This document shows positions 188-57,383 of a stretch of 64,000 nucleotides of DNA, one piece after another. Under the pieces are notes generated by a model. The model did no database searches and was not told the origin of the DNA. It worked only from the letters and a program-made list of their open reading frames with translations. Each line of letters begins with the position of its first letter. Position 1 is the stretch's first letter. The stretch is from Metridium senile (Eukaryota; Cnidaria; Anthozoa; Actiniaria; Metridiidae): positions 7,133,961 to 7,197,960 of the forward strand of contig OX459108.1 in assembly GCA_949775045.1 (NCBI GenBank), read 5' to 3'. A program made the translations under genes and the position numbers.

Positions 188-3100
188 GTGATAACTACGC
201 CAGGAGATCCTAATACTTTCATATCCTGTGGTGAAGATGGTACAGTACGTATGTTTGATATCAGAACAAAGTCTAAATGTGCCAAAAGAGACTGTAAAGA
301 TGTGAGTATTATCAAAAATATCATCATCATCATAATCAACTATCATCATCATCAACTATCATCATCATCATCAACTATCATCATCATCAACTATCATCAT
401 CATCATCAACTATCATCATCATCAACTATCATCATCATCATCAACTATCATCATCATCAACTATCATCATCATCAACTATCATCATCATCATCCACTATC
501 ATCATCATCATCAACTATCATCATCATCAACTATCATCATCATCATCAACTATCATCATCATCAACTATCATCATCATCAACTATCATCATCATCATCCA
601 CTATCATCATCATCATCAACTATCATCATCAACTATCATCATCATCAACTATCATCATCATCCACTATCATCATCATCATCAACTATCATCATCATCATC
701 AACTATCATCATCATCATCAACTATCATCATCATCATCATCCACTATCATCATCATCATCAACTATCATCATCATCATCATCAACTATCATCATCATCCA
801 CTATCATCATCATCATCAACTATCATCATCATCCACTATCATCATCATCATCAACTATCATCATCATCATCATCAACTATCATCATCATCATCAACTATC
901 ATCATCATCATCATCAACTATCATCATCATCCACTATCATCATCATCATCATCATCAACTATCATCATCATCATCATCAACTATCATCATCATCCACTAA
1001 CATCATCATCATCAACTATCATCATCATCCACTATCATCATCATCAACTATCATCATCATCATCAACTATCATCATCATCATCAACTATCATCATCATCA
1101 TCATCAACTATCATCATCATCATCATCAACTATCATCATCATCAACTATCATCATCATCAACTATCATCATCATCATCCACTATCATCATCATCATCAAC
1201 TATCATCATCATCAACTATCATCATCATCATCAACTATCATCATCATCAACTATCATCATCATCAACTATCATCATCATCATCCACTATCATCATCATCA
1301 TCAACTATCATCATCATCAACTATCATCATCATCATCAACTATCATCATCATCAACTATCATCATCATCAACTATCATCATCATCATCCACTATCATCAT
1401 CATCATCAACTATCATCATCAACTATCATCATCATCAACTATCATCATCATCCACTATCATCATCATCATCAACTATCATCATCATCATCAACTATCATC
1501 ATCATCATCAACTATCATCATCATCATCATCCACTATCATCATCATCATCAACTATCATCATCATCATCATCAACTATCATCATCATCCACTATCATCAT
1601 CATCATCAACTATCATCATCATCCACTATCATCATCATCATCAACTATCATCATCATCATCATCAACTATCATCATCATCATCAACTATCATCATCATCA
1701 TCATCAACTATCATCATCATCCACTATCATCATCATCATCATCATCAACTATCATCATCATCATCATCAACTATCATCATCATCAACTATCATCATCATC
1801 ATCAACTATCAAAATCATAAACACCACCATCACTACCATGCATCATCACCATCATACATCTAAAGGCCCAGGCAAACGGTTTACTTTTACTTCAACATCC
1901 ATTCGATTTTTGTTTTGTCACACCATAATTGCCATCATTACTAACATCATCATAATTTCTGTCATTATCATCTTCACAATTGCCATCACCATCATTATTG
2001 TTTGAAGTTATAGTAATCATCATCAATGGTAATGTTTAAACTCTTTCAACATTGATTCAACATTGATTCAACACGTTTCAACAATGTTGAAAGAGTTTAA
2101 AAGTATTTAAACATTGCCATTCAACAAAATCGAACGGATGTTGAAGCAAATGTTGAAACCGTTTGCCCAGGCCTTAAGTGTCATTACACCATAATTGCCA
2201 TCATTGTCATAATAACGAATATCATCATCATTTCTGTCATCATCATCTTCAAAATTGCCATCATCATTGTTTTTATTGTAATCAGCATCATAATTTTTAT
2301 CATAATTTTCTTATTTTTTTACATGATTCCTTATCAGGATAATAATCATAAATAACAGGTTCCCATTTAAATCTGTACTTTCCCATTTAAATCTTGTACT
2401 TTTGCATATTGTGTTAATGTGTGCTAAACACACAGATCAACCAATCAGAGTATATTATTTCTGAAGTGAACTCCTCTGATTGGTTGATGTGTGTGTTTAG
2501 CACACATCAACAAAATTTGCATAAGTACAGATTTAAATGGGAAAGTACAGATTTAAATGGGAACCTGAACTCAATGTTATTTTCATTCTTTTTGCCACCA
2601 CCATCATTTACTTGGTATAGGTGGGACATACAGTATCGTATTTTATTATGGTTTTGCCAATAAACCATTGTTATAAGAACAAAGAAAATTAACAAATCTA
2701 TTGTGAAAATGGTTGGCAAATTAGCATCACAATACCAACACTTGTTAACACTACGCTCACCTATAGGCTGAGTTTATACAAACCCTAAATAGTCTCATAT
2801 TGAATATTTTGTAGGATATTCTAATAGATTGTGGTAAGGCTGCCACTACAATCTGTATCAATCCATTTACTGGTTATAGCTAAGCTGTGTGTTTACAAAC
2901 CCTAACTATTTTCATATTGAATGTTTTGTAGGATATTCTAATAGATAGTGGTAAGGCTGTGACATCAATCAGTATCAATCCATTGGCCCCCTATCAACTG
3001 GGTATAGGCTGTGAGGACAGTCTTGTAGCCTTGTTCGATCGACGTTCTTTGAGCACAGCTAGTGCAAGCTCAGGAAGGAACGGAATGAAAGGAATGACTT

Positions 3101-6100
3101 ACAAATTTAAACCTGACACTTTGAGAGACAGAACATGCCGTGTGACATCATTGCAGTATAGGTAAGGTCACTGTCACAATATTATTATGACATCAGATAT
3201 TATTTTACATGGGATATGGTTGATGGTGAAAATGGTGATGATCATGGCGTTGGTGTCATTGGCGTCGGTATTATAGAGACCCGTGGATAAAAATCGCCAG
3301 CCTCCTCCATGCTACAGTGGAGCAGGCAAAGCGAACGACCCAGAGGGGCGAGTTGGTCACCCAAATCAACTCAAAGGGGGGCTCCACCTCCTCCGAGGAA
3401 CTGAACTGATATGATGGTGATGGTAGTAATGATGATGATTATGATTATGACAATAATTATGATGACAATAATGATGGTGGTGATAGTGATGGTGATGGTA
3501 GTAATGATTATGATTATGACAATAATTATGATGACAATAATGATGGTGGTGATAGTGATGGTGATGGTAGTAATGATTATGATTATGACAATAATTATGA
3601 TAAAAGTAATGATGGTGGTGATAGTGATGGTGATGGTAGTAATGATGATGATTATGACAATAATTATGATGACAATAATGATGGTGGTGATAGTGATGGT
3701 GATGGTAGTAATGATTATGATTATGACAATAATTATGATGACAATAATGATGGTGGTGATAGTGATGGTGATGGTAGTAATGATGATGATTATGACAATA
3801 ATTATGATGACAATAATGATGGTGGTGATAGTGATGGTGATGGTAGTAATGATGATGATGATGATTATGACAATAATTATGATGACAATAATGATGGTGG
3901 TGATAGTGATGGTGATGGTAGTAATGATGATGATTATGACAATAATTATGATGACAATAATGATGGTGGTGATAGTGATGGTGATGGTAGTAATGATGAT
4001 GATTATGACAATAATTATGATGACAATAATGATGGTGGTGATAGTGATGGTGATGGTAGTAATGATGATGATTATGACAATAATTATGATGACAATAATG
4101 ATGGTGGTGATGGTGATGGTAGTAATGATGATGATGATGATTATGACAATAATTATGATAAAAGTAATGATGGTGGTGATAGGGATGACAATAATGGTAA
4201 TGCGATGACAGTAAGATGACATATTTATTTATCTTATCTCTATATCTCTATATTTAATTATTTATTTATTGATAATTTAATTAATTAATTAAAATTACAT
4301 TAAAAAAAGGGATTTATTTATATACATGTATTTTTTATCCTTAAAGTCAATAGACCTCTTTACCTTCCTTGTTTGTTGTCCCATTTCAGATCACGTGATG
4401 CCCTTAGGAATTGTTTCTTTCACATGTAAATGATATAACACATTCATCATAAAAGAACAATTCTCAAGGGACTGACACGTGGTCTGAAATGGGCAATTTG
4501 CATAGTCTTTTAATCTACAAAACATGAATAGATTCAAAGGTCGATTCAGGCATCTTTAGTTCTAAAAACAAACCTTCTTTCTTATTTCAGTGGCGATGGA
4601 AGTGAGCTACTGGTTAGCTACTGTGCTGATTATGTTTATCTGTTTGACACTAAAGGACAGAAGGAAGTCCGTTGTAACAGCGAAGTGGCTCAAGATAATG
4701 GGTCCATAGCTGCCAATAACACTAAAGACAATACACCAATGAAGAGACTAAGGTATGATTATTGTGATGATGATATGCAGATGATGATAATGATGAAGAT
4801 GATTATGATGGTGATATACAGATGATGATAATGATGAAGATGATTATGATGGTGATACAGATGATGATGATGCTGTTAGTGATACAGATGTTGATAATGA
4901 TGAACATGATGATGGTGATATACAGATGATGATAATGATGAACATGATGATAATGTTGGTGATACAGATAATGATAATGATGAACATGATGATGATGTTG
5001 GTGATACAGATGACGATGATGATGTTGGTGATACAGATGATGATGATGATGATGTTGGTGATACAGATGACGATGATGATGTTGGTGATACAGATGATGA
5101 TGATGCTGTTAGTGATACAGATGATGCGATGGTGATTATAACGATAGCATTAAAAAGACGATAATCAAAATGTAATTTTTTCTCCATTGAAAGTCAGTTA
5201 ACAATAATGATGTATGATTATACTAAAACATTAAAAATTGTTTATATCTTAAGGTTGAGAGGGGACTGGTCAGACACTGGCCCAAATGCGCGACCTGAAA
5301 GTGAGGGCGCTTCCACGGAAAGTACCTTAATGCAGCGCATGTCGGATTTGTTTGTCCGCTGGATAGAAGAATCGTTTCGCGGCAGTCAACGTAGCAGACT
5401 AAGGTCAGCTCAAGCTCGAACATCGCCATCTACGTCATCATCGGCGTCATTTCTGTCACGCTCAACAAACTCTTCATCATCTGACAGTTCAGGGATTCTA
5501 GAAGCTTCTGGTTCCATTCCTTCTCGTGACAGGGAGACCGGTACTGATGGGTACTCGGATGAAATGGAGGAATCAGAAAGCACATCGACATCGTTAATCA
5601 CCGTGAGGGAACGAAGCGTAGAAGATATGATGGACGAGAGAGAATGTCCTGAAGACCCATCCCCTTTAGATTGTCCAGGGGAATCCCCTTCAGAGTCTCC
5701 AAGCGAATCTCTTTTAGGATGTTCGGGCAACTCTGGTTTGAAACATCCGAGTAGATCTACTTTAGAATTCACCAGGGAATCCCCGTTAGAATGTTCTAAG
5801 GAATCCTCTTCAAAATCCAGTGAATTATACAGGGAATCCCCATTATGTCTACCAGAGGAGGACAAAATGAGTTCCTTGAAAACTGCTGCTTTCAGTGAGC
5901 TTGTTAACGATAAAAAATTAATGAAATCAAGTCAAGTGAATGAATCGAAACATTTCAATAATCAAAATGATAAAATGGAAGTACAATCAGAAAATAGTCA
6001 ATGTACCCCATCAATAACTCTATCAACAAGTGATACAGATTCGTATAATAAACATTCAGAACAATTTGAAATGGAACAGGGTGGGGCATATGCACGGGGT

Positions 6101-9100
6101 AGGCTGCATGACCAAGTAAAACCTACTGAAGAAATTAAAGATTGTAACGCTCGGCAGGGCGTGGCTGGATCACGTTGTGAACGAGAGAGAACAACTGCGA
6201 GTGGTCAAGAGAATAGTTATGAACAATTTAGTGTGGATTACCCACAAGAGGGTTTGCCAAGTTTACGCAGCCGGTCAAAAAGGACGATTTCGAGTCGAAA
6301 AGTACAAAATAAACAAACTAACATGGACCATCAACAAGGTGTGGCAGATACACGTGGTGAGCCAGTAGAAGATTGTTCTAGTTGTCCAATTGAGAATAAA
6401 AAACTAATTAGTGCTGAACGTCATGAAGAGGGCGTGGCCAGTACACGGGGTGATCCAGTAGAAGATGGTTCTAGTTGTCCAATTGAGAATAAAAAACTAA
6501 TTAGTGCTGAACGTCATCAAGAAGGCGTGGCTGGTACACGGGGTGAGCCAGTAGAAGATGTTTCGAGTTGTCCAGTTACAAACAATAAACAAAATGGTAC
6601 CGAGTGTCAACAAGATGGCGTGGTGGGCTCACGTGGTGAGGTTCCACCAACAAGCTCCAGTCGGGACACCGCGTCTGACAGCTCTCAAAGTGAAGCAGCC
6701 ACCCGGATACAACGCATGTTTAGAAACTACAAAGAAGCTAAAAACAACAAGACTATAGCCGATTGTGATTACTTCACAGACTGGAAAGATGACTTCATCT
6801 GGGTTCCTAAAATGACGCGCGTGTATCGAGGACATAGAAACGCCCGTACCATGGTAAGACATGTAGTGCTTAGTTAGGTGTTTTGTTAATTGATTGCCGG
6901 GTTGATTGTTCGATTATTTTTTATTTTCAAGGTTCTCCCAAAAAGCAGGCCGGTGCTGTATAATAGGACACGAAGTCCCCTTTACAATAGAGAACACTAA
7001 CGTCCCACCCAATAAGAATATCCCAACTAACCCAACCCCTAGGTAATCGCCAATAAGAAAAAAATATATATGAAAAGTTAATAAATATACTATATTATAG
7101 TATTGGTTAAGTAACGATCCTCGTAAGAACGATAGCAGGAACGGCAAGGAATGTGCAAAGGTGATAATTGTGGTATTGTTAAAACTGGTCGTCTGATAGT
7201 TTGAAACATGAAAAATTGCCATAACTTTGTGGATAATCAAACTTATTAATAATCAACTTATTTCTTATTTATGCAATAATTTCCTTATACAAATAGTTCT
7301 TCTAAGGTTAAATTCTAGAGAAATTCTATGTGGGAAACACTGCAAATTGTCTACCTTTCCTTTCTTTTGTCTCTGTCTCCCCTGATTGGTTTAAAACTTT
7401 TATTTTTGAATATATAAAACTTTGCAGAAACGCGTAAACACAAATTGTTCTTCCAAAACCTGCTGTGTATATGTCAATTCATCCCATTAGAAAAAATCTC
7501 ACAATTTGGATGTGGGGAAAGTGAAATGCCGCAGAACAAAAGGAAGTGCTATTCTTTTGATAAGGATCATTACTTAACAAATTAACTGGTTGAATGATTT
7601 ACGTAATGACTGACTGTCAGTGAGAGTGATCGACTAACGGACTAGCTATCTATGACTGACGGAATGTCTGATCAACTGAATAAATTAATGCGGAATAAAT
7701 AAATGAAAAAATATATATACTGAGAGACAACCCCTGCCCTTCGCGAAAAAGAAGCAAAACAGAATTGTTTACCTCCTCTTTAGACAGGGTCACGGGCAGA
7801 TCCAGAAATTTGTCAGTGAATTGCAAATGAACGGATGTTGAAGCAAATGTGGTGTCAGGGGGTGCCCGGTCCCTAAATGTTTTAAATACAATAGGGGTAA
7901 CTGCTGCGCTAGGGGGTGCCTGGTGCTACTAGGGACAGTGTGAAAGCAACTGGTACCGCCGCCTTTATATCAGTCCTTATCTGTGAGAAATCTGATGGTT
8001 CGAAGGAAACTAGACACTGCAAATAGAGTAAAATGTATCTGTAAAAATAATCGTATTTGTTGTTGTATTAAGCAATCTCTTTGTAAACCAATAATATACA
8101 TATTGTTTTGTTCAAGATCAAGGAAGCTCGGTTCTGGGGTGACCGGTATATTATCAGTGGTAGCGACTGTGGTCGAATATTTCTCTGGGATAAAGATACT
8201 ACAGAAGTTGTGATGGTATTTCAAGGTGATCGGCACGTGGTTAACTGTGTGCAGCCACACCCATTTGACCCTGGTGAGTAATACTGATATCGTTTGAGAA
8301 TAGTCCCCTTCCACAGTTCCCTGCGCCATCTTGAAAGGTAGCCGGGCCTTTGCACTGCAAAAACGGCTGAGTAGATACAACGCAGCATATTGAGTTGATC
8401 ATGCATTCAGGATGACACTTTATATGGAGTAAACCCAACTCATTTTTAAGAGTAAATTTAAATTTAGTTGTGCCATTGAGTACAACGTACTCAATATATT
8501 GAGTTCAATCTCACTGTCACTCACTATAGTGTCCTCCTGAATGCATGTTTAACTCAATATACTGAGTTGTATCTACTCAGCCGTTTTTGCACTGAAGTGT
8601 GCATTGAAGCGAAACGAACGTTGAGCTTGCAATGATAGAGACACGTGAATTATTGTCCCGCGAGGTGTTAAAAAGTCTACATCATTGCAAACTCAACGTT
8701 CGTCTCGTTTCGATGCTATAGCCCGGCTACCTTTCAAGATGGCGCAGTGAACTGTGAAGGGGACTATTAGTTGGAGTTATGAATGGGGTCTTCGATTCTC
8801 CGCCTTGTACTGGGTACCATCGCACTCTTTGTTTCTAATGTTTTACTTGGAGTCTTGTTATTTCTATCGAAACTGTTACACGAAGGAGGTGCTTAAATTT
8901 GAGAATCTGTGCTTTAACCTTCAATAGACTTATGTCGTATTCGAAAGAGAAATCATTTCTATGGAAATACGTAGACGGTGAACTATACACCAAGGAGATA
9001 CCCAAATGTGAGATCCTGGGCCCTGTAACATCCAATAGACTTATATCGTATTCCGAAGAGATAACAATACTCCCGTTTCGAGTTCTTTATTGCGCATCCT

Positions 9101-10605: not shown

Positions 10606-11170
10606 TACAGCCGTTCTCAGTCACACGTGCACTGGTTCATTTAAAACATTGCTGTCTAGACTTGATTTTTGGAGGGTTGTCCAGTATCACCATTAAACTT
10701 CATTGGTAAAAGACATTTACCAATGGAGTCTAATGGTCAATTACCACAGGAAACCCAAAGACCATATATAATGTACTTAGGGAGGGGAGTGCATTAGCTG
10801 TTTTGTACTAGCCCGAGGGAGGGGATAGTTATATAAATTATACAACTATAGGAAGGGGACACTTCAACGTTAATACATGAATGATATACCTTGGAAAAAA
10901 TTCAAACACAAACATGGTATGGGAACCCTGTGTAGACCATATATAATCTACTTAGGGAGGGGAGATCACTAGCTGTATTGTACTAGACCGAGGGAGGGGA
11001 TAGTTAACTAAAGAAAGGGGACACTAGAATGTTAAGACATCAATTATATACCTTGGAAAAAAATTAAAAATTTTTTTTTGAGGTGAGAGCACCATTGTCA
11101 CCATTGGCACCATTGGCACCATTGGTATAGGGGGTGCCATGATCGTTCTAGAAAAAAATTAAGTTCTGGG
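10606..11170 (+). repeat. Left TIR, unique outer part
   Basis: This pairs with the complement of about 23120-23902. It holds two related sub-blocks, each a gggaggggag / ccgagggaggggatag / aaggggacac module with a taccttggaaaaa end (10764-10900 and 10939-11065). The terminal repeat is therefore itself internally duplicated. Confidence 0.85.
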
Positions 11171-12510
11171 ATACCTGTGGCTACTTACAGTTTATTGCTA
11201 TCACTAGCCAAAGGGGCCCCAAAACCTTTACCAATGGTCTCCGTTGGTACCATTGGTGAATGAAAACTCCATTGGTGCATCTCATTATCGAATGGTCTAA
11301 TGGTGAAAATATCATGGTTTGGGATCCCTGTGGCTACTTACAGTTTATTGCTATCACTAGCCAAAGGGGCCCCTAAACCTTTACCAATGGTCTCCGTTGG
11401 TACCATTGGTGAATGAAAACTCCATTGGTGCATCTCATTATCGAATGGTCTAATGGTGAAAATATCATGGTTTGGGATCCCTGTGGCTACTTACAGTTTA
11501 TTGCTATCACTAGCCAAAGGGGCCCCTAAACCTTTACCAATGGTCTCCGTTGGTACCATTGGTGAATGAAAACTCCATTGGTGCATCTCATTATCGAATG
11601 GTCTAATGGTGAAAATATCATGGTTTGGGATCCCTGTGGCTACTTACAGTTTATTGCTATCACTAGCAAAGGGGCCCCGAAACCTTTACCAATGGTCTCC
11701 GTTGGTACCATTGGTGAATGAAAACTCCATTGGTGTATGTCATTATCGAATGGTCTAATGGTGAAAATATCATGGTTTGGGATCCCTGTGGCTACTTACA
11801 GTTTATTGCTATCACTAGCCAAGGGGCCCCTAAACCTTTACCAATGGTCTCCGTTGGTACCATTGGTGAATGAAAACTCCATTGGTGCATCTCATTATCG
11901 AATGGTCTAATGGTGAAAATATCATGGTTTGGGATCCCTGTGGCTACTTACAGTTTATTGCTATCACTAGCCAAGGGGCCCCTAAACGTTTACCAATGGT
12001 CTCCGTTGGTACCATTGGTGAATGAAAACTCCATTGGTGCATCTCATTATCGAATGGTCTAATGGTGAAAATATCATGGTTGGGGATCCCTGTGGCTACT
12101 TACAGTTTATTGCTATCACTAGCCAAAGGGGCCCCTAAACCTTTACCAATGGTCTCCGTTGGTACGATTAGTGAATGAAAACTCCATTGGTGCATCTCAT
12201 TATCGAATGGTCTAATGGTGAAAATATCATGGGTTTGGGATCCCTGTGGCTACTTACAGTTTATTGCTATCACTAGCCAAGGGGCCCCTAAACGTTTACC
12301 AATGGTCTCCGTTGGTACCATTGGTGAATGAAAACTCCATTGGTCATCTCATTATCGAATGGTCTAATGGTGAAAATATCATGGTTTGGGCTTCCTGTTT
12401 GCTTGGTCGCATGGCTGGTTCAGGGCTTACGGCACCCGTCACCTTTACCAATGGTCTCCGTTGGTACCATTGGTGAATGAAAACTCCATTGGTGTATGTC
12501 ATTATCGATT
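11170..12510 (+). repeat. About 154-bp tandem repeat (8-9 copies) at inner edge of the left TIR
   Basis: Each unit carries gatccctgtggctacttaca, tatcactagccaaagggg, accaatggtctccgttggt and ctcattatcgaatggtctaa. The words ACCAATGG and CCATTGGT recur within each unit, giving dense short inverted repeats. The last unit, near 12390-12510, instead has cgcatggctggttcaggg. That variant is the one found, as a single copy, in the right arm (about 22985-23130). Expansion is therefore specific to the left end. Confidence 0.9.
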
Positions 12511-13564
12511 GGTGTATTATCTAATTGTGAAGTCGCTTAGTTTCCTGGACCATTTTGAAAAAAAATGGATATTCTTATACTTACTGGATTTAGCCGAAGG
12601 TGAGTATTATATTTTTGAATGTTTTAGATGAACGAGTTGAGTTTTGGAGTGGAGTTGTGTTGTTGTTACTCTGTAAAGTTATTTAAAGCTGATCAAATTC
12701 CTTGTATAGAGTTAAAAGTTATTCGATCATTTAATATTGTTGACTAAAGAGCTTTTACATCTCACAATATTTACCAGCTATAAACTCGAACAGAACTTTG
12801 AATAAGAAATATCTCACTCATACGGATTCTGTTTTTTTATTGAACTTAATAAGGCGAACATAGAATATCACTGAAACTTCACTCAGTTACTAATCAAGAG
12901 ATGCTTATTCAAAAAAATAAAATAAAAGGGGGTTGCCGCATTGGTTTTAGCGCTACATGGCGGTGAAATATAAGGTTAGCATTTTTACTGCCGTGCGTAA
13001 CAAATATTCGAATCATTATATGCTAACATTGAATTGTCTATGTCTTTCGTTACATATCCAATACCAAAACAGTTTTATTGAATAAAATTTGTATAAACTT
13101 AAGTATTTATTAAAATTAGAGATCTTTTAGACCTTTCGATGCGCAAGTAAATTTTCGTTAAATAAAATTTAATGCATGACTGTCGTACGTTTTCGTAAAT
13201 TTCTCAAAAATGAAACATAGAATCTTGTTCAAGTTTAGATATGAATTATATGGATCACAAAGTAGCTCTTGAAATGCATGGTGAAGGTATGAATATTTGA
13301 ACTTTATTATCACTGTTGAATTATTATATATTAAATTTATATGTATAAATATATATTTGATTTGTTTATAAAGGCCAGTAGTAATTTACAATCATGACCA
13401 CACAATACATTATTTTCAAAATTAGTTATTTTTGAAAATTCAAATGTTTCAGTTAGACTATATTTATTCAAAACTTGAAAATGATATGAGTAATGTAGCA
13501 AATAATGGATGGTGAATGATTTTTTTTCTTATAAATGAAATAATCTATTATGTTAAACAAAGAC
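12511..13564. other. Interior of the KDZ-type element, no recognisable content
   Basis: Very AT-rich sequence. No exon, motif or inverted repeat could be supported. A missing 5' transposase exon could lie here unseen. Confidence 0.5.
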
Positions 13565-41600: not shown

Positions 41601-44600
41601 TATTTTTCCCTCGTGATCCTTTCCAGTGGCTTCCGTCAAGATTACCTGGTTTGCTGACTCATACAGCCACGTGCGCAGCTAGTGATACAGTTCTCTAGCC
41701 TTTCATCGTTTTCACTCCTTCTTCGAATCTGCATATTCAATTACTAGTTAAAAAAGTCTGCGAGCTTTCGTTTTCTTCAGCACAAGTTCTATATAGTAGA
41801 AAAGGTAAGTGTCCCACATCGAGAGTTACTTAAATCAGCTCCTTCCCACTCCGTTCTGCACAATCTTAAGTCTCAGTTGCATGTTATATATTCTTTACAA
41901 ATTCACTAAGCCCATAAATATGTTTTAATAATAATAAATAATAATAGTAATAATGTACATCGCGTATCTAAATAAATGCTCTATGCGCATTGTACATTTT
42001 TGTATACTTCCAATGGCTTGGTAAATTCATAACGAAGATAAAGTTTATATAATTTTTTATCTGAATTTTGTTATACATAATATCGACATAAAAAGGGCTT
42101 GTTTGACAGAAGGCAGGTTGGGCTTCCTGTTTCAAGATTTGGGCTTCCTGTGCTTTGGCCAAAACAAACCTGGTGACCTTTCGGTCTAGAACCGTTTACA
42201 ATTAGAGACTGGCACATGTTGTTTGAATAAATTCCATTCAATTAATATAACTTCGACAAAGAATAAGACACTTTTTACTTTTTTAAGTCAGCCAAATGAA
42301 ATCGTTTCATCGTTTCATTCGCCAGTCTACAGTCACGGAGGTAAGATTAAGCTTATAAAATTGCTTTATTGGTTATTCTTTAATATATATTTTTTCGGTT
42401 ATTGTATAAAGTTAAAGAATTTATCTGTTTCGGAGGTGTTTCGTTTCGTGTTTCGTTTCGGTGTTTCGCTGTTTAGCACTGCCCATCAATAATTAATTGT
42501 TCACTATTAATAATTGCAAATCTCTAGTATAATGTTATTAATGCACACTATTAATAATTAATGTTCACTATTAATAATTGCAAATCTCTAGTATAATGAT
42601 AGTAATATACACTATCAATAATTAATTGTTCACTATTAATAATTGCAAATCTCTAGTATAATGTTATTAATGCACACTATTAATAATTAATTGTTCACTA
42701 TTAATAATTGCAAATCTCTAGTATAATGATAGTAATATACACTATTAATAATTAATGTTCACTATTAATAATTGCAAATCTCTAGTATAATGTTATTAAT
42801 GCACACTATTAATAATTAATTGTTCACTATTAATAATTGCAAATCTCTAGTATAAATAATGATAGTCATATACACTATTAATAATTAATGTTCACTATTA
42901 ATAATTGCAAATCTCTAGTATAATGTTATTAATGCACACTATTAATAATTAATTGTTCACTATTAATAATTGCAAATCTCTAGTATAATGATAGTAATAT
43001 ACACTATTAATAATTAATGTTCACTATTAATAATTGCAAATCTCTAGTATAATGTTATTAATGCACACTATTAATAATTAATTGTTCACTATTAATAATT
43101 GCAAATCTCTAGTATAATGATAGTAATATACACTATTAATAATTAATGTTCACTATTAATAATTGCAAATCTCTAGTATAATGTTATTAATGCACACTAT
43201 TAATAATTAATTGTTCACTATTAATAATTGCAAATCTCTAGTATAATGATAGTAATATACACTATTAATAATTAATGTTCACTATTAATAATTGAAAATC
43301 TCTAGTATAATGATAGTAATATACACTATTAATAATTAAATGTAATTAAGTGTCGAAAAGCCCGTAAGGGAACACATAATAAAGATATGTATGTATGTAT
43401 GTACTAGCATAAATCCTGCTGAGAAAAACTAGAAGTTTAGGTATATAGCATGCAAATATTTCTACTAGCATCTGCTATCAATTCAGATTTATTGAATAAA
43501 AAATGAAGATACATAAGCAGATGTTATCTGAAATACTAGAGTACACATGTCATAAATCCATGTAATAGGATGTAATATTATCAACTATTTAGTTATTGAC
43601 TACCTTGAATTTACTCAGACATGAATTACACAATACACATTACAATGAACGATACAATATGTACACTGTTCTGTTCCAGTGTTATCTACAAGGTTGTTCA
43701 AAAAGTACAAATAGAAATTAGTTAGAAAAAATTGTTTCATGAATATATGATATGCACTCTATGTAATAAATCAAAACGTCCAGTTTTACTCTATAATTAG
43801 AAAGTGTTTGCCCCAAAAGAATGTCTGTGCCCTTTCAGATTAGACTATTATCTTACCTGCGACTGCTAATATAAGTAATGTAGTAGCTATTAGAACAGCT
43901 TTTACTTGGAATGAATAATGTGCGAACAACTTTCTTGTCTTGTCTTGAAGACTACTGCCTTTGATACCAACATCATCACTAGTCTTAGTGTCTACACTAG
44001 TTTCATTTATTGGTACGGTAGTCTCCATCAAGGGAAGCTCAGTCAGCTCGGTCAGCTCAACCTGCTAAAATACAAGAAAATATTATTAACTTTTTTTAGG
44101 GTTAGGGTACTCTCATATATTTGCTAAACAGGTATATGCTGCCAGTCGGGGTATGGTCTTTGAGGTTCTGGTCTTAGACAGGGTATACATGTTAGAGAAG
44201 GATGACAATGCTGTTATATCCTATCAGGTCAGCTAATAATATATCAATAACAGGTTCCCATTTAAATCTGTACTTTCCCATTTAAATCTGTACTTATGCA
44301 AATTGTGTTGATGTGTGCTAAACACACAGATCAACCAATCAGAGAAGTTCAATTCAGAAATAATATACTTTGATTGGTTGATCTGTGTGTTTAGCACACA
44401 TCAACACAATTTGCATAAACTTGTACAGATTTAAATGGGAAAGTACAGATTTAGATGGGAACCTGTTCAATATAGTATTTTTTCATTCCTTTTTCTTCTT
44501 CATTATTTTTCTTTCACATATTTATTCTAATAAAATAACTTTAATGTATCCCCTATCAATATCAATAAAAATACATTGTGTTTAATATATTTATGAAAAG

Positions 44601-49091: not shown

Positions 49092-50561
49092 TTACATCCA
49101 AAGGGACTTGACTTTTATCATCACTTTCAGCGCAAAATAATTAACTCGTTTGTAACCATCGCAGCCTTCAGTTACCGCCCATGGGTATAGCTTCTCCACC
49201 TCCTGAGCTACCAAGCCTTCTCCTATACCATTCAGCCCCAGTCTCTTTGCCTTGTCATTCCAAACCCACTGCACTCCTTGAAGGCCGAGGTGAGCATACT
49301 CAGAACCGCTGACCGGTAGTATGTGTTGTTTCAGTCTGGCATCGCTTAATGCCCAAACCCAAGCCAAAGCATGTTGTCCAACCAATCCAGCTCCGACGAG
49401 CGCCGCGGCTTTGATGTACTCGAAAGCATTGCTGGATTCGCTTTTACGCTTTTTTGCTGCTTCTAAAGCAACTCTTACTTTCTCTTTCGCTGCTCCTCTT
49501 TGTTCCTCCAAGGTGCAGATCTTTTCGTATTTTGACAAGTTGTCATGCTGTTTCTGTCCTATTTCTTCTACAGTTAGTTCGTTGCGCAATAGTGGTTCTA
49601 TATGATCTTTAAAACCATTGTTGCAGTTTGCCATCTCGTACAGGAAAACTAGATCTGGCAGTTGCGTCTTCCACTGTTCGTTGTTATTCATCTCATTTAC
49701 CAGCTTTTCTGCCAATACTGCCAAGCCATTCCCATTCATCTGACCGCCTTTTATGGTCTTCTTTTCAGGTGTCTTAAGCAGGTGCCGTTTAATAATAAGA
49801 ATTCGTTCAAGATATTCATCCCCATCAACATCAGAATGCCTGCCAAAGTTTTTAACATATGGTAGTCCAAATACTTCAATAGTATCCATCGGAAAGAACT
49901 TACCAATGATTTCTTGCTTGTTAACGTCCATCTTCCCTTCTTCTGGATTTGCTTTAGTAAATGCATATTTTATATAATCTCCAGTTGTGGAATATCCTTT
50001 AGGGACGGCTAAAGCGCCTCTCATCACCGCAATCAAACGTGGAAAGTTCTTGATGTCGTCAGTGTTCAACACATTCTCGCTTACTCGACAGATCAAGTAC
50101 AGGAATTGGATGATATGATTTGAAGGAGTTTCTTTCATGAAGACCATCAATGATGATGACAATAAAGCTGTGAAAATGCTGAGTTTAGTCGTGCGTTCAT
50201 CGTTTCCAAGATCCGTCCCTTCAACGTCTAACAAGAGCAAGCCATCTTCTGGAATGTAGGACAACCAAACACCACGCGTGACCGCAGTCATTGTGTCTCC
50301 AGTCTTGAACACTTCTTCATCTTTTCGTTTGTGAAGGTTGTTCAAAGCTGTGGACTTACCAACTCTAGCATCGCCAATAGCAGCTATCACTCGTACAGGA
50401 TGAGAGACTTTCTTTAGCAAGGACAGCGCTTCGTTGTTTAGTATGAACTTATCGGTCTTCTTATCTATCGACAGCAAAACGGTGGCTTGTTTAGCTGAAG
50501 TAAATTCTATGAATCTATTCACTGCTAATAACACAACGACTAGGTTTACTAGTTGAGACAT
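49092..50561 (-). CDS. GBP-like GTPase with C-terminal peptidase S74 (intramolecular chaperone) domain
   Basis: Single-exon, 489 residues. Residues 1-23 look like a signal peptide (LVNLVVVLLAVN, then TSA). The GTPase has a P-loop GDARVGKST (63-71), switch I TAVTRGVW (92-99) and DVEGTD (112-117), followed by SIFTALLSSSLMVF, the layout of guanylate-binding proteins/atlastins. The GBP (T/L)RD base-recognition motif appears as AVMRG (178-182), so the Asp is missing. Residues 340-375 are charged and helical. A hydrophobic stretch (385-405) precedes SDARLK (406-411), the S74 start with the Ser and Lys that serve self-cleavage in endosialidase tail chaperones and MYRF. GLVAQEVEKLYP (449-460) and VNYFALKVMI close that domain. 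I infer a secretory or ER-lumenal dynamin-like protein, trimerised and perhaps cut by its S74 part. Function is unknown. Confidence 0.85.
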   Translation of the reverse strand: MSQLVNLVVVLLAVNRFIEFTSAKQATVLLSIDKKTDKFILNNEALSLLKKVSHPVRVIAAIGDARVGKSTALNNLHKRKDEEVFKTGDTMTAVTRGVWLSYIPEDGLLLLDVEGTDLGNDERTTKLSIFTALLSSSLMVFMKETPSNHIIQFLYLICRVSENVLNTDDIKNFPRLIAVMRGALAVPKGYSTTGDYIKYAFTKANPEEGKMDVNKQEIIGKFFPMDTIEVFGLPYVKNFGRHSDVDGDEYLERILIIKRHLLKTPEKKTIKGGQMNGNGLAVLAEKLVNEMNNNEQWKTQLPDLVFLYEMANCNNGFKDHIEPLLRNELTVEEIGQKQHDNLSKYEKICTLEEQRGAAKEKVRVALEAAKKRKSESSNAFEYIKAAALVGAGLVGQHALAWVWALSDARLKQHILPVSGSEYAHLGLQGVQWVWNDKAKRLGLNGIGEGLVAQEVEKLYPWAVTEGCDGYKRVNYFALKVMIKVKSLWM

Positions 50562-50624: not shown

Positions 50625-50631
50625 TTTTATA
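50625..50631 (-). promoter_or_regulatory. TATA box of the GBP-S74 gene
   Basis: TATAAAA on the minus strand, 64 bases before the ATG at 50561. It predicts a transcription start near 50600 and a leader of about 35-40 nt. A taattggttgttttagaggg block upstream (about 50655-50675) recurs at 55790-55815. Confidence 0.55.
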
Positions 50632-50639
50632 TGAAGAGT

Positions 50640-51476
50640 TCACGTGTCTGTTTTTAATTGGTTGTTTTAGAGGGAATAATGTCAAGAAAATGACATCGGA
50701 AGCAACGAAGAACCAACGAACAATCGCGAATAGAATCGAAGTATTAGCGATTCTACGTCGATGTGTTTTCGGATAGTTAGTGAGCATTCGAGAGGTTTTC
50801 CGGACGTCCAATTTTCTTAAGAATGTAGGGATTTCTGTCGGTTTTCAAGGGTTCGTTTTTTCCTTTCGGAATGTTATCGGTAAAGCACATGGGTCGCACA
50901 TTACATGGAGAAATAAGGACTACTTCAATCGTCAGCCCTCTTTCTACGCAAGACGCCGAACTGTTTGGATCGTAGGGAAAACGTAGACATACTGAGGTGA
51001 GTATAGACTGCTAGAAAGCAAATTATTTAATAGAACTGTTCTAAATTACCGAACTGAATAATTACTTTGTGCTTTTTTACGTGTTTTGTTTATATTTAAG
51101 CTACTCGAACAAGTCGAGAAAGCTTTGTGCGTGCCTGCGATCACGTTTACGAACTCAGTGACCTATAAAGCTTACTTTACGCTTGAAAATATCTTATTAT
51201 TTGAAATCATTGTACCATAAAATATATAAACAGCATCATGACTTACATAATACAATGTAGAAACGTAAAAGCCATTAAAAATCGTAAGCTCAATTCATTA
51301 AAGCTATGGAAACCAAACAAACAACATTCAAAGCCATGCATAACACGTGTAGATTGTCAACTTACGCTGTCAAAAATAACGCAAACATTACGAAACGTGT
51401 CGGAAATCATCACTTTATTTCCACTTAAAGCTCAAATCATTAAACTGTGTAATTGTTTTATTAAAAACTTACATTT
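50640..51476. other. Upstream flank of the GBP-S74 gene
   Basis: No gene or repeat supported apart from the probable promoter. AT content rises away from the gene. Confidence 0.4.
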
Positions 51477-51846
51477 TGGCGGGAAAATGACGTCATAAGT
51501 TTGGCGCCAAAATTACAAGTTTGTTCTATGACCAAAATGACCACATCATTCGAAAGATCTTTATGAAAGGATCTACAAAGTGAAGAGAACAAATAATTTG
51601 AGCTATAAAATCAAAAGATATGAATTTTTAAATACTTCGATTTCGGCCATTTTGTTCTATTTTTAGTAACAAAATGGCCGAAATACAAGTTTTCAAAAAT
51701 TCATATCTTTTGATTTTATTGTGCGAAATATGAATTTTATTTTAATTTTAGATCCTTTCATAAAGATCTTTCGAATGATGTGGTCATTTTGGTCATAGAA
51801 TAAACTTGAAATTTTGGCGCCAAGCTTATGACGTCATTTTCCCGCC
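51477..51846. mobile_element. 370-bp palindrome (GGCGGGAAAATGACGTCATAA arms)
   Basis: ggcgggaaaatgacgtcata pairs with tatgacgtcattttcccgcc. Pairing includes cattcgaaagatctttatga, caaaagatatgaatttttaa and cggccattttgttctatttt, with a loop near 51665. It could fold into one very long hairpin. Confidence 0.85.
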
Positions 51847-52777
51847 AAAAAAATAAAAATCAGAAAAAATAAAAAGAACAAGTTGTAAAGAACATTGACC
51901 TGTGTATTTTGGCGAAGTTTCAAGAATTTTGAGGTTGAAATAGAAAAGTTAGTCAAACCTTGTCGATTTCAGGTGTCTTTTTGGCCACCGTGTTGTCAAA
52001 TAAATCAACCTTTTTAAATGTTAAAATATTTAAATCAACATACATAATCCCTATCTCTCTGACTTACATAAAAAGTGGTTTTGGCTTTTTATTACAGCCC
52101 TACAGAGTACTAAGTTATCGTTAATAGTTTTTTTTTTTTTTCACAAATCAATCATGTACATGCGAAGCCATTTTGTTTTTATGATGAGATGATGGTTAGG
52201 GCTTGGAGTCTCAGCCCAGGTACCAAGTGTTTGGCAAGGTTCCAAGATGACAAATGTTGTTGCGGGAATCAATTTTTTTGTTTTCATCCTAAATAGCCAT
52301 ATAAACGTTGTTATTGGTAGCAATTATTAATCAATAATATGAAATATAACAAAATTATGTAAGAAACAAGGTTTTACTAAAATATTTGGGTCAGAACGCA
52401 CCTCTAAAGAACATTACCGGTGATTGGTTGGCTAAACCCAGAGTGAAACTATAGAACGAAGCATAAGCAATAGAGCTTATTGTTCTGGGCAGCCAATCAC
52501 AATGAGTCTTCTAGAAAACTGTGAGACTACAGAAATATTTTATGGCTAGAACTAAAAATCTAGATCAAATCATACAATACAACCATTATCCTTACACATA
52601 AAATTAATGAAAAAAAATATTAAAAAACCATTAGAAATGTTCCAGATTACAAATGTCATGTTGAACAATAATTTATGTTAGTAATACTATTTCCTTCTAA
52701 ATCCTTCAATTGTCACAGCAAAACAAAATGATACAGTGTTTTTCACTTGTCTAATGTTATGTATCTTTTCCTTATAG
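51847..52777. other. Intergenic, no gene seen
   Basis: AT-rich, with T(13) near 52128-52140. Near 52765-52777 the sequence tatcttttccttatag looks like a splice acceptor for the following frame. Confidence 0.4.
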
Positions 52778-53912
52778 ACATGGCCAGCATCAATCCGGAC
52801 AAGATGGACTCAGTCAATCTAAAAGTAAAAGTTACATCAAAAGCTCTGAAGAATGTTTCAACTGGCACAATCCTTGAGATGTTGGTCTCAGACGTCAAGT
52901 CATTTGCAAGGTGCATTGCCTGGAATAACTTAGTATCATTTTTTGATAAAAGGCTAAGTTTAGATCAAACATACTTAATGTCAGGCGTACATGTTCGCAA
53001 AATTAAACCCCAATATCAATACCAAGGGACTCTACCTATTGAACTAACACTATCTGGTAGAATAGACATTAAAACATCCCAAAGTACCATTGATACTGTG
53101 CCAGAAACCCCTTACTGTAAGATAAAAGAGTTGAATCAAGCTCTTAACACAAGAGTTAACATTATAGGAATTGTAAAATCTTACGAAAACACACCAACAC
53201 ATATTGTAACCCAACAGGGGAAATCTGTCATAAAGAAAGAATTTACAATTGTAGATGATACAGAGAAGGAAGCTACCGCCACATTGTGGGGAAATCTAGC
53301 TCAAACTTTTGACTTAAGTAACAATCCAGTAGTGAACATTACAAATTCTCCAGTTAAGTATTTCAGAATCATGCCACAATATCTGTAACGTCACCAAAAA
53401 GCAAAACACTAAAAGAGTGGTTTAAGAAAAATCCATTAACCACTCCAGTTTCCACAGCAAAAAGACATCTTGACGTAGGTGATTACACTACAATCGATAT
53501 CAGTGAACTTGAACATACAACTGTTGGATGAGAAGTTCAAGTATTGACAGAAATTCAGGATGTCAAATCCAACATGTACTTCTCTTGCAAAGTATGCAAA
53601 AGCGGTGTCATAACAGTCCTTGACGAAATATTCTGTCAAAAATGCAACAAGGCAACTGAAACCTTTAAAAGAGTTGTTTTAAACTTAAAATTGAAAGGTT
53701 TTGCTCAAGAAGTAAAACTTTTTCAAGACAATATTGCATGTCTTTTAAGTTCCGATATCAATAACATTGACAATACTGATATTGAAGAAGCCATTGAGCC
53801 ATTTAAACATAAACAAGCTAATTTTCTAGTATTGAAAAGGGCAAAAAACAACAACATTGACTACATCATTTTAGACATCACCTTTGGACAATTTAAAAAA
53901 CCTGCACTGTAA
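52778..53912 (+). pseudogene. RPA70-like single-strand DNA-binding protein, broken
   Basis: ATGGCCAGC at 52780 opens MASINPDKMDSVNLKVKV. The frame continues to a TAA at 53386 through two OB-fold-like blocks (FARCIAWNNLVSFFDKRL; EFTIVDDTEKEATATLWG, the typical RPA DBD-B strand pattern). A shift near 53360-53380 moves the frame to SVTSPKSKTLKEWF. A TGA follows at about 53530. Then comes a C-terminal DBD-C-like region with zinc-ribbon cysteines (FSCKVCKSG ... IFCQKCNKA, C-x2-C-x12-C-x2-C), ending at TAA 53910. RPA70 binds ssDNA in replication. Divergent free-standing copies are also carried by Helitron transposons, so this may be a mobile-element cargo rather than a lost host gene. An acceptor-like ccttatag just before the ATG suggests a missing 5' exon. 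Confidence 0.75.
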
Positions 53913-57133: not shown

Positions 57134-57156
57134 AGGGACAGACCATTAGATTTTTT

Positions 57157-57189
<33 letters not shown>

Positions 57190-57383
57190 GGTGGTCAAAT
57201 ACCAAAAAAAATTCGAGCACAGCCCTAAAGAGAAAAAAAAAATTCGAGCACAGCAAGTATTCTGAAAAAAAAAAGATCGTGCAAGATGAAAAAACATTTG
57301 TGCACATACTTAGAGTGGGAAAAGAGTATCGTGAGAAAAAAAATTGCCCAACTCCCCCCTCAAAGATCTAATGGCCCATCCCT
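57134..57383. mobile_element. MITE with AGGGACAGACCATTAGA ends and a 30-nt G run
   Basis: Left agggacagaccattagattt and right aaagatctaatggcccatcc with ct. It abuts the element ending at 57133. G(30) at 57159-57188. Related to 21926-22214. Confidence 0.78.

Follow-up and report, generated by a model that had tools for sequence, protein, structure and literature searches.

A GBP-like GTPase fused to a short S74 domain in the sea anemone Metridium senile and other hexacorals

A single intron-free gene of Metridium senile encodes a protein in which a signal-peptide-like leader, a GTPase domain of the guanylate-binding protein (GBP) type, a helical region and a C-terminal S74 domain are joined in one open reading frame (ORF), and the same fusion, here called GBP-S74, recurs in other hexacorals. 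Both domains are known, and MYRF is a well-known case of a phage S74 domain working in an animal protein; the combination with a GBP domain and the short type of the S74 domain appear to be new, and for this hexacorallian family no description of such a fusion was found among the titles and abstracts listed from the open-licence literature. GBP-S74 places a phage-type domain on an immunity-type, seemingly secreted GTPase in corals and sea anemones.

The gene and its product

The gene lies on the minus strand of the window, by which we mean the whole 64-kb stretch of DNA analysed, and its ORF begins with ATG, encodes 489 amino acids and contains no internal stops. Its features are as follows.

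49092..50561, minus strand: single-exon GBP-S74 ORF, running from the leader through the GTPase domain, the helices and the hydrophobic segment to S74
50493..50561, minus strand: signal-peptide-like leader by hydropathy, residues 1-23; the cleavage position near TSA/K is a guess
49683..50468, minus strand: GBP-type GTPase domain, residues 32-293
50349..50375, minus strand: P-loop GDARVGKST, residues 63-71
50016..50027, minus strand: base-recognition (RD) motif, changed to VMRG, residues 179-182
49389..49682, minus strand: helical middle region, residues 294-391, with the near-invariant Cys313 and Cys349 (structure model and alignment)
49347..49412, minus strand: Gly/Ala-rich hydrophobic segment, residues 384-405, abutting the putative scissile bond
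49095..49346, minus strand: short S74 (ICA) domain, residues 406-489, with Trp432 and Trp434 and only a short C-terminal helix
49344..49346, minus strand: Ser406, putative nucleophile, equivalent by alignment to MYRF Ser587 (numbering from passages of PMC8326128)
49329..49331, minus strand: Lys411, partner of Ser406 in the putative dyad, equivalent to MYRF Lys592 (same passages)

Both domains score above the curated Pfam cut-offs: GBP at residues 37-233 (E 2.1e-10; 40.7 bits, cut-off 21.1) and Peptidase_S74 at residues 406-463 (E 3.3e-7; 30.9 bits, cut-off 22). The initial annotation of this DNA had described an intronless frame with a GBP GTPase core and a C-terminal S74 domain starting at SDARLK; the profile matches bear out both domains, the two dyad residues Ser406 and Lys411 are in place, and the frame is indeed a single exon. 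The S74 domain is not part of another transcript, because both domains are encoded in a single ORF and the fusion recurs in relatives, and none of the observations that the annotation had named as speaking against its reading was made. Chance or misassembly is ruled out by the relatives with both domains, the named ones of which lie on contigs of up to 51.9 Mb. We are highly confident that the anatomy is as described, that is, an intact gene with two genuine domains.

A profile search of the 64-kb window found no other clear GBP-S74 copy and returned one weak match, at 57149-57367 (E 0.056). A TATAAAA string, seen by eye at 50625-50631 on the minus strand, 64-70 bases 5' of the ATG, is weak evidence for a promoter.

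The GBP-S74 family and its distribution

The protein search gave 91 matches, comprising 81 family members with SDxxLK, 8 family proteins without it and 2 unrelated S74 proteins. The named sources of the fusion are Actinia tenebrosa, Acropora digitifera, two Montipora species, Orbicella faveolata and Nematostella vectensis, all of which we place in Hexacorallia; Desmophyllum pertusum contributed an S74-less model. All named family sources found are thus hexacorallian, most sources carrying no name, and the architecture that the initial annotation had proposed to seek in other cnidarians is present in other hexacorals. The closest relatives of the window protein are P0002 (45% identity) and P0003 of A. 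tenebrosa (41%). In four pairs, P0003/P0005, P0027/P0031, P0070/P0079 and P0075/P0083, both members come from contigs of equal length, which suggests clustered paralogues.

A profile search, which scored the 7993 candidates with the most words in common, contributed, besides known matches, a further family member (P0093), two GBP pieces (P0094 and P0095) and five S74-only proteins (P0096-P0100); among these candidates it found no further named animal group with the fusion. When the S74 region alone was used in a protein search, 17 candidates yielded 3 matches, one of which, the phage-like P0092, led to the ejection-type S74 domains considered below.

A GBP-type GTPase with an altered base-recognition motif

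By sequence, the GTPase region (residues 32-292) matched 13 distinct solved chains, all of them GBP1, GBP2 or GBP5, with a best E value of 5.8e-15; foldseek with the structure model matched atlastin as well. The window protein retains an unaltered P-loop (GDARVGKST), Thr95 of Switch I and DVEG, and across the 64-row family alignment the corresponding positions are strongly conserved: Gly63 and Arg66 in 62/64 rows each, Lys69 and Ser70 in 63/64 each, the Switch I Thr in 59/64 (Ser in 4), and the Asp and Glu of DxEG in 63/64 and 61/64. The RD motif, whose Asp determines guanine preference, behaves differently: its Arg is kept in 63 of the 64 rows, and the Asp position holds Asp in 16, Gly in 29 and Thr in 12. 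The change to VMRG that the initial annotation had pointed out is therefore real but not peculiar to this gene, the Asp being missing in 48 of the 64 aligned members. Taken across the family, the sequences suggest that the catalytic machinery has been kept while the G4 motif has drifted.

The G1-G3 motifs of GBPs are given as GxxxxGKS, T and DxEG, and G4 as T(L/V)RD, in the passages available of PMC2387175; the window protein has the first three and lacks the fourth, and because the G4 Asp is absent we regard it, from its sequence, as a GBP-domain protein rather than a canonical GBP. It differs from vertebrate GBP1 and GBP2 (PF02263) further in its signal-peptide-like leader and its near-invariant Cys pair, as well as in the loss of the RD Asp from most family members. 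Some GBPs end in a CaaX motif, whereas GBP-S74 ends in the S74 domain and hence has no C-terminal CaaX. With atlastins it shares the G domain of the GBP superfamily and a helical middle region, but it has no clear transmembrane hairpin, and a GTPase behind such a leader would be lumenal. A defence role and inducible expression, which the initial annotation had suggested, may be envisaged by analogy with the general biology of the GBP family; in the portion consulted of a Nematostella study, GBPs are named as a class, with the members not specified, among the genes found in the response to poly(I:C) (PMC8476169).

Leader, cysteines and compartment

In line with the signal peptide claimed at the outset, hydropathy, the measure used here, points to a signal-peptide-like leader: the best N-terminal 11-mer of the window protein, starting at residue 4, has a mean of 3.14, and 74 of the 81 family members reach an 11-mer mean of at least 2.0 within their first 70 residues. 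Cys313 is present in 64/64 and Cys349 in 63/64 aligned rows, and the two presumably form a disulfide. At the start of the S74 domain, an N-x-S/T sequon occupies alignment column 413 in 55 of the 61 members with letters there (the window protein has His and lacks it, whereas P0075, its Nematostella homologue, has it); this is weak evidence for secretion, since the number of sequons per protein (3.11) is barely higher than expected (2.79) and Asn is also frequent at this site in phage and bacterial S74 domains. On these sequence features, the GTPase is likely to be lumenal or secreted. We know of no established supply of GTP in the ER lumen, which counts against a lumenal GBP. The family prompts the question of how such a GTPase, its base-recognition motif altered, could function outside the cytosol.

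The S74 dyad and the comparison with MYRF

The predicted structure of the S74 domain matches the MYRF ICA domain, 3gw6 and 3gud, so that the S74 fold is present in the model. As the 81-member set was itself defined by SDxxLK, conservation of the dyad was counted on family hits with precomputed PF13884 matches, all 75 of which carry SDxxLK, and on the 64-row alignment, in which Ser406 is Ser in 62/62 and Lys411 is Lys in 61/61 rows with letters. The passages seen of the MYRF study state that MYRF is cut between P586 and S587 by a Ser-Lys dyad, that S587A or K592A abolishes cleavage entirely, and that cleavage requires a trimer whose formation is driven mainly by a C-terminal triple helix (PMC8326128); related statements are found in the part consulted of PMC3742443. 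Trp432 and Trp434 align with the two tyrosines in the HYRY stretch of MYRF, which are probably the Y615 and Y617 described in PMC8326128, as far as its text was available, as lining the cutting hole.

The initial annotation had brought in trimerisation and self-cleavage of the MYRF kind together with the domain. The domain and its dyad stand; the mechanism cannot be carried over from MYRF, because the long C-terminal coiled coil is reduced to a short helix. Counted from the Ser to the C-terminus, the S74 tail has 84 residues and contains a single helix (475-488), with no long triple coiled coil of the MYRF type in the window protein and no triple-beta-helix stalk upstream of S74 in the structure model. 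In the absence of such a coil, any trimer must rest on the S74 core or on the upstream helix. MYRF is, moreover, a transcription factor that has a beta-helical stalk and a long coil at its C-terminus, whereas GBP-S74 is a GTPase that has an apolar segment and hardly any coil.

A conserved dyad is no proof that cleavage takes place, and the S74 domain may instead be a permanent clamp for oligomerisation or folding that yields a trimeric secreted GBP and keeps the dyad as part of its fold. The missing coil fits such a clamp, given that MYRF cleavage depends on the trimer (PMC8326128, from the passages cited), and Asp407 and Leu410 of SDxxLK are conserved about as well as Ser and Lys, as would be expected of a structural motif; against it, Ser406 and Lys411 are invariant in the aligned rows with letters while positions 408, 409 and 412 vary, and two S74-less relatives, P0081 and P0083, resemble the product of a cut. 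We consider a non-cutting S74 domain unlikely, though it deserves serious attention.

A probable relationship to S74 domains of phage ejection proteins

A tblastn search of 50,697 phage records with the S74 cassette of the window protein gave 30 matches. Fourteen of these bear the annotation tail fibre or tail spike, and several others sit among P22-type head-completion and ejection genes: gene 11 of AH02 precedes a 'P22-like injection translocase', gp17 of H6/1 is annotated 'putative ejection protein', and the S74 locus of PVA1 precedes genes named as ejected proteins. Six short proteins read from the annotated records (L001-L006) end 70-83 residues past the Ser, have a W-x-W motif and mostly show a Gly/Ala-rich apolar segment before SDxxLK; one of them, L005, is annotated 'tail spike protein/chaperone'.

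For comparison, S74 domains were divided into a short class, no longer than 83 residues when counted from the Ser to the C-terminus (70-83 observed), and a long class. The viral loci are the best 80 of at least 241 confirmed ones and were found with family-derived patterns, and nine phage loci were hand-picked from the 30 tblastn matches, so that both sets are biased towards resemblance. Five of the 89 viral and phage loci were dropped (L015, L016 and L059 for a wrong motif position, L066 for a wrong frame, and L075 because none was found), as were 17 of the 79 bacterial loci, which had no recognisable SDxx[LMIVF]K. The length that defines the short class is not independent evidence, whereas W-x-W is: the motif occurs in 81/81 family members, 18/18 short-class, 4/67 long viral and 0/62 bacterial domains. 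The window S74 domain has W-x-W, no long coil and the apolar Gly/Ala segment, and its 84 residues lie just above the range of the class.

Most similarity measures point the same way. A short-class HMM scored higher than a long-class HMM in 80 of 81 family domains (median 71.8 against 58.8 bits), and the top BLAST group was the short class for 64 family domains, the long class for 13 and bacteria for 4, although the short class supplied only 18 of the 147 targets. In the reverse direction, a family HMM gave its best long-class domain 71.2 bits and its best short-class domain 67.3, and the median best BLAST scores were close (short 60.5, long 57.0, bacterial 55.5 bits); P0003 was best matched by a bacterial S74 domain and P0034 by a long viral one. 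A first tree (17/81 family, 18/18 short, 34/67 long) showed three separate clades and gave no placement for the family. In a second, midpoint-rooted tree built on 75 columns (13/81 family, 14/18 short, 17/67 long, 16/62 bacterial), a branch with support 99/94 separated the family and the short class from the long viral and bacterial domains, and within that grouping the family and the short class each formed a clade of its own.

Profile matches to PHROG families are in keeping with an ejection link. The window protein was best matched by the virion-structural phrog_6121 (4.7e-9; best tail family 4.3e-7), and both P0075 and P0003 by phrog_4287 'DNA ejection protein' (P0075: 4.4e-9, best tail family 1.1e-7; P0003: 7.7e-9, best tail family 1.7e-8, a difference of only two-fold), so that one or other of these led in all three family members tested. 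Among the 10 of 18 short-class phage proteins tested, six had an ejection family as their top match, three had phrog_6121 and one, L026, had a tail family. For six loci the ejection label is independent of the S74 domain itself, because phrog_598 'DNA ejection' matches mainly before S74 in L001, L002 and L024, and phrog_4287 covers nearly the whole protein in L013, L040 and L055. The 10 proteins encoded downstream at nine short-class loci comprised three 'released from the phage upon host infection' (L001, L024 and, weakly, L040), one endolysin (L026), one weak virion structural match (L013) and five with no match.

Taken together, the sequence comparisons link the family S74 domain, with moderate confidence, to the ejection-type short class, to which it is closer than to tail-fibre or bacterial domains on most tests; our confidence is kept at that level because the best short-class and bacterial BLAST matches of the window S74 domain tie at 68.6 bits. 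Like GBP-S74, the phage ejection S74 domains (phrog_4287 and phrog_6121; P22 ejection cassette) have W-x-W, no long coil and a Gly/Ala segment before SDxxLK, but the animal domains end in a helix of about 15 residues, and the GTPase replaces the ejection-protein body. The tail-fibre S74 domains, to which the endosialidase and tailspike chaperone domains (3gw6 and 3gud) belong, fall on another branch in both trees and are here mostly preceded by fibre sequence rather than by an apolar Gly/Ala segment.

The short class itself (70-83 residues, W-x-W, no C-terminal coil) ends phage proteins that mostly match DNA-ejection families, at loci including L001 (2937-3752), L002 (2889-3719), L013 (2140-3267), L022, L024, L026, L040, L055 and L083. 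At L002 (NC_023605.1, Vibrio phage PVA1), the S74 ORF at 2889-3719 has no RefSeq gene, apart from a short overlap with the next gene. No paper naming such a class was found in the open-licence literature, and the terms 'S74' and 'endosialidase' are absent from the main text of an ejection-protein review (PMC8954989). The animal family thereby points to a little-noticed class of S74 domains on phage ejection proteins.

The hydrophobic segment and S74-less relatives

The 15 residues before the Ser have a median hydropathy of 1.99 in the family, 1.08 in the short class and 0.81 in the long class; the short class is thus only slightly more apolar here than the long class. In the structure model, residues 390-401 of this segment have pLDDT below 50. 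The Gly/Ala-rich segment before the Ser, which the initial annotation does not mention, is probably the part on which the S74 domain acts, but it may simply be packing. It might also be a membrane anchor, in an atlastin-like arrangement in which the S74 domain lies across the membrane or, as in MYRF, frees the GTPase. The foldseek match to atlastin, the 19-mer means of 3.03 in P0005 and 1.88 in P0003, and the strongly hydrophobic C-terminus of the S74-less P0086 agree with an anchor; a 19-mer mean of at least 1.6 is reached in only 6 of 81 members, however, which makes a transmembrane reading by hydropathy weak, the segment is Gly/Ala-rich as it is before S74 in phage ejection proteins, and a GTPase that the leader had brought into the lumen would differ in location from that of atlastin. 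We regard such an anchor as improbable.

Upstream of S74 runs a helix that is charged and, in many relatives, long. The linker from Cys349 to the Ser has a median of 121 residues and reaches at least 120 in 34 of 60 proteins; that of the window protein, at 57, is the second shortest of the 60. P0081 and P0083 have no S74 domain and terminate in a hydrophobic segment directly after the coil, an end that looks, at the level of sequence, like the product expected from S74 self-cleavage. P0081-P0083 form a clade of their own (support 99 or higher, 100/99, in a tree of GTPase and helical columns with 30 of the 64 rows), and the C-terminus of P0082 may be a worn S74 start, which would mean that the domain was lost; alternatively, S74 may have been gained in other lineages.

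The short linker, the lost sequon and a branch of 0.9, the longest of its four-row clade (others 0.12-0.4), might mark the window gene as a degenerating paralogue, a duplicated GBP-S74 copy that is losing function in this species. Its 489-codon frame is intact, however, and G1, G2, G3, the Cys pair, Ser406, Lys411, Trp432 and Trp434 are all retained; the window protein is also found on six contigs of at most 2262 bases each, which may be transcripts. Degeneration is accordingly very improbable in our judgement.

A proposed mechanism

The best explanation overall, to which we give slightly less than an even chance, is a secreted GBP-like GTPase with an apolar segment and an ejection-like S74 cap that is cut off after assembly; self-cleavage by S74 and action on membranes, taken as a claim of their own, are put forward more tentatively still. 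We infer secretion, a disulfide, a trimer, a cut between L405 and S406 and a membrane-active tail. The leader would direct the GBP-S74 chain into the ER, where Cys313 and Cys349 would form a disulfide within the helical region. The S74 domain, aided by the upstream helices, would join three chains and keep the hydrophobic segment covered; after assembly, the Ser406-Lys411 dyad would cleave the L405-S406 bond, and the S74 cap would be shed. The product would be an oligomeric GBP whose bare hydrophobic C-terminus could bind to or insert into a target membrane. Cytosolic GBPs and atlastins attach to membranes by a lipid tail or a transmembrane hairpin, and if S74 does cut, the family would represent a further eukaryotic use of this domain and a means of controlling a membrane-active GBP without a lipid tail.

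A bolder version, which we consider a long shot, is that hexacorals co-opted a phage ejection cap as a switch: S74 would sheathe the apolar tail and cut itself off, and the secreted GBP would attack or remodel a microbial, phagosomal or symbiosome membrane from outside, using a pocket that is not restricted to guanine and might accept, for example, extracellular ATP.

Other features of the window

Tandem repeats occur at 323-1818 (ATC-rich, about 1.5 kb, units of 16-35), at 11167-12513 (8.8 copies of 153-base units) and at 42488-43343 (65/129-base units). An inverted repeat at 51474-51850, with two 183-base arms that are 88% complementary and separated by 11 bases, may be a foldback element of the MITE kind lying upstream of the GBP-S74 gene. 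A 570-codon open frame at 5165-6874 is Ser/Glu-rich, with a 93-base repeat in its interior and, close to its end, an IQ-like motif; it has no Pfam match and may resemble the WD/IQ protein DCAF6. Two plus-strand open frames at 52732-53906 carry replication protein A domains (REPA_OB_2, E 1.2e-13; Rep_fac-A_C, under its cut-off) and would be part of an RPA1-like gene or of a mobile element.
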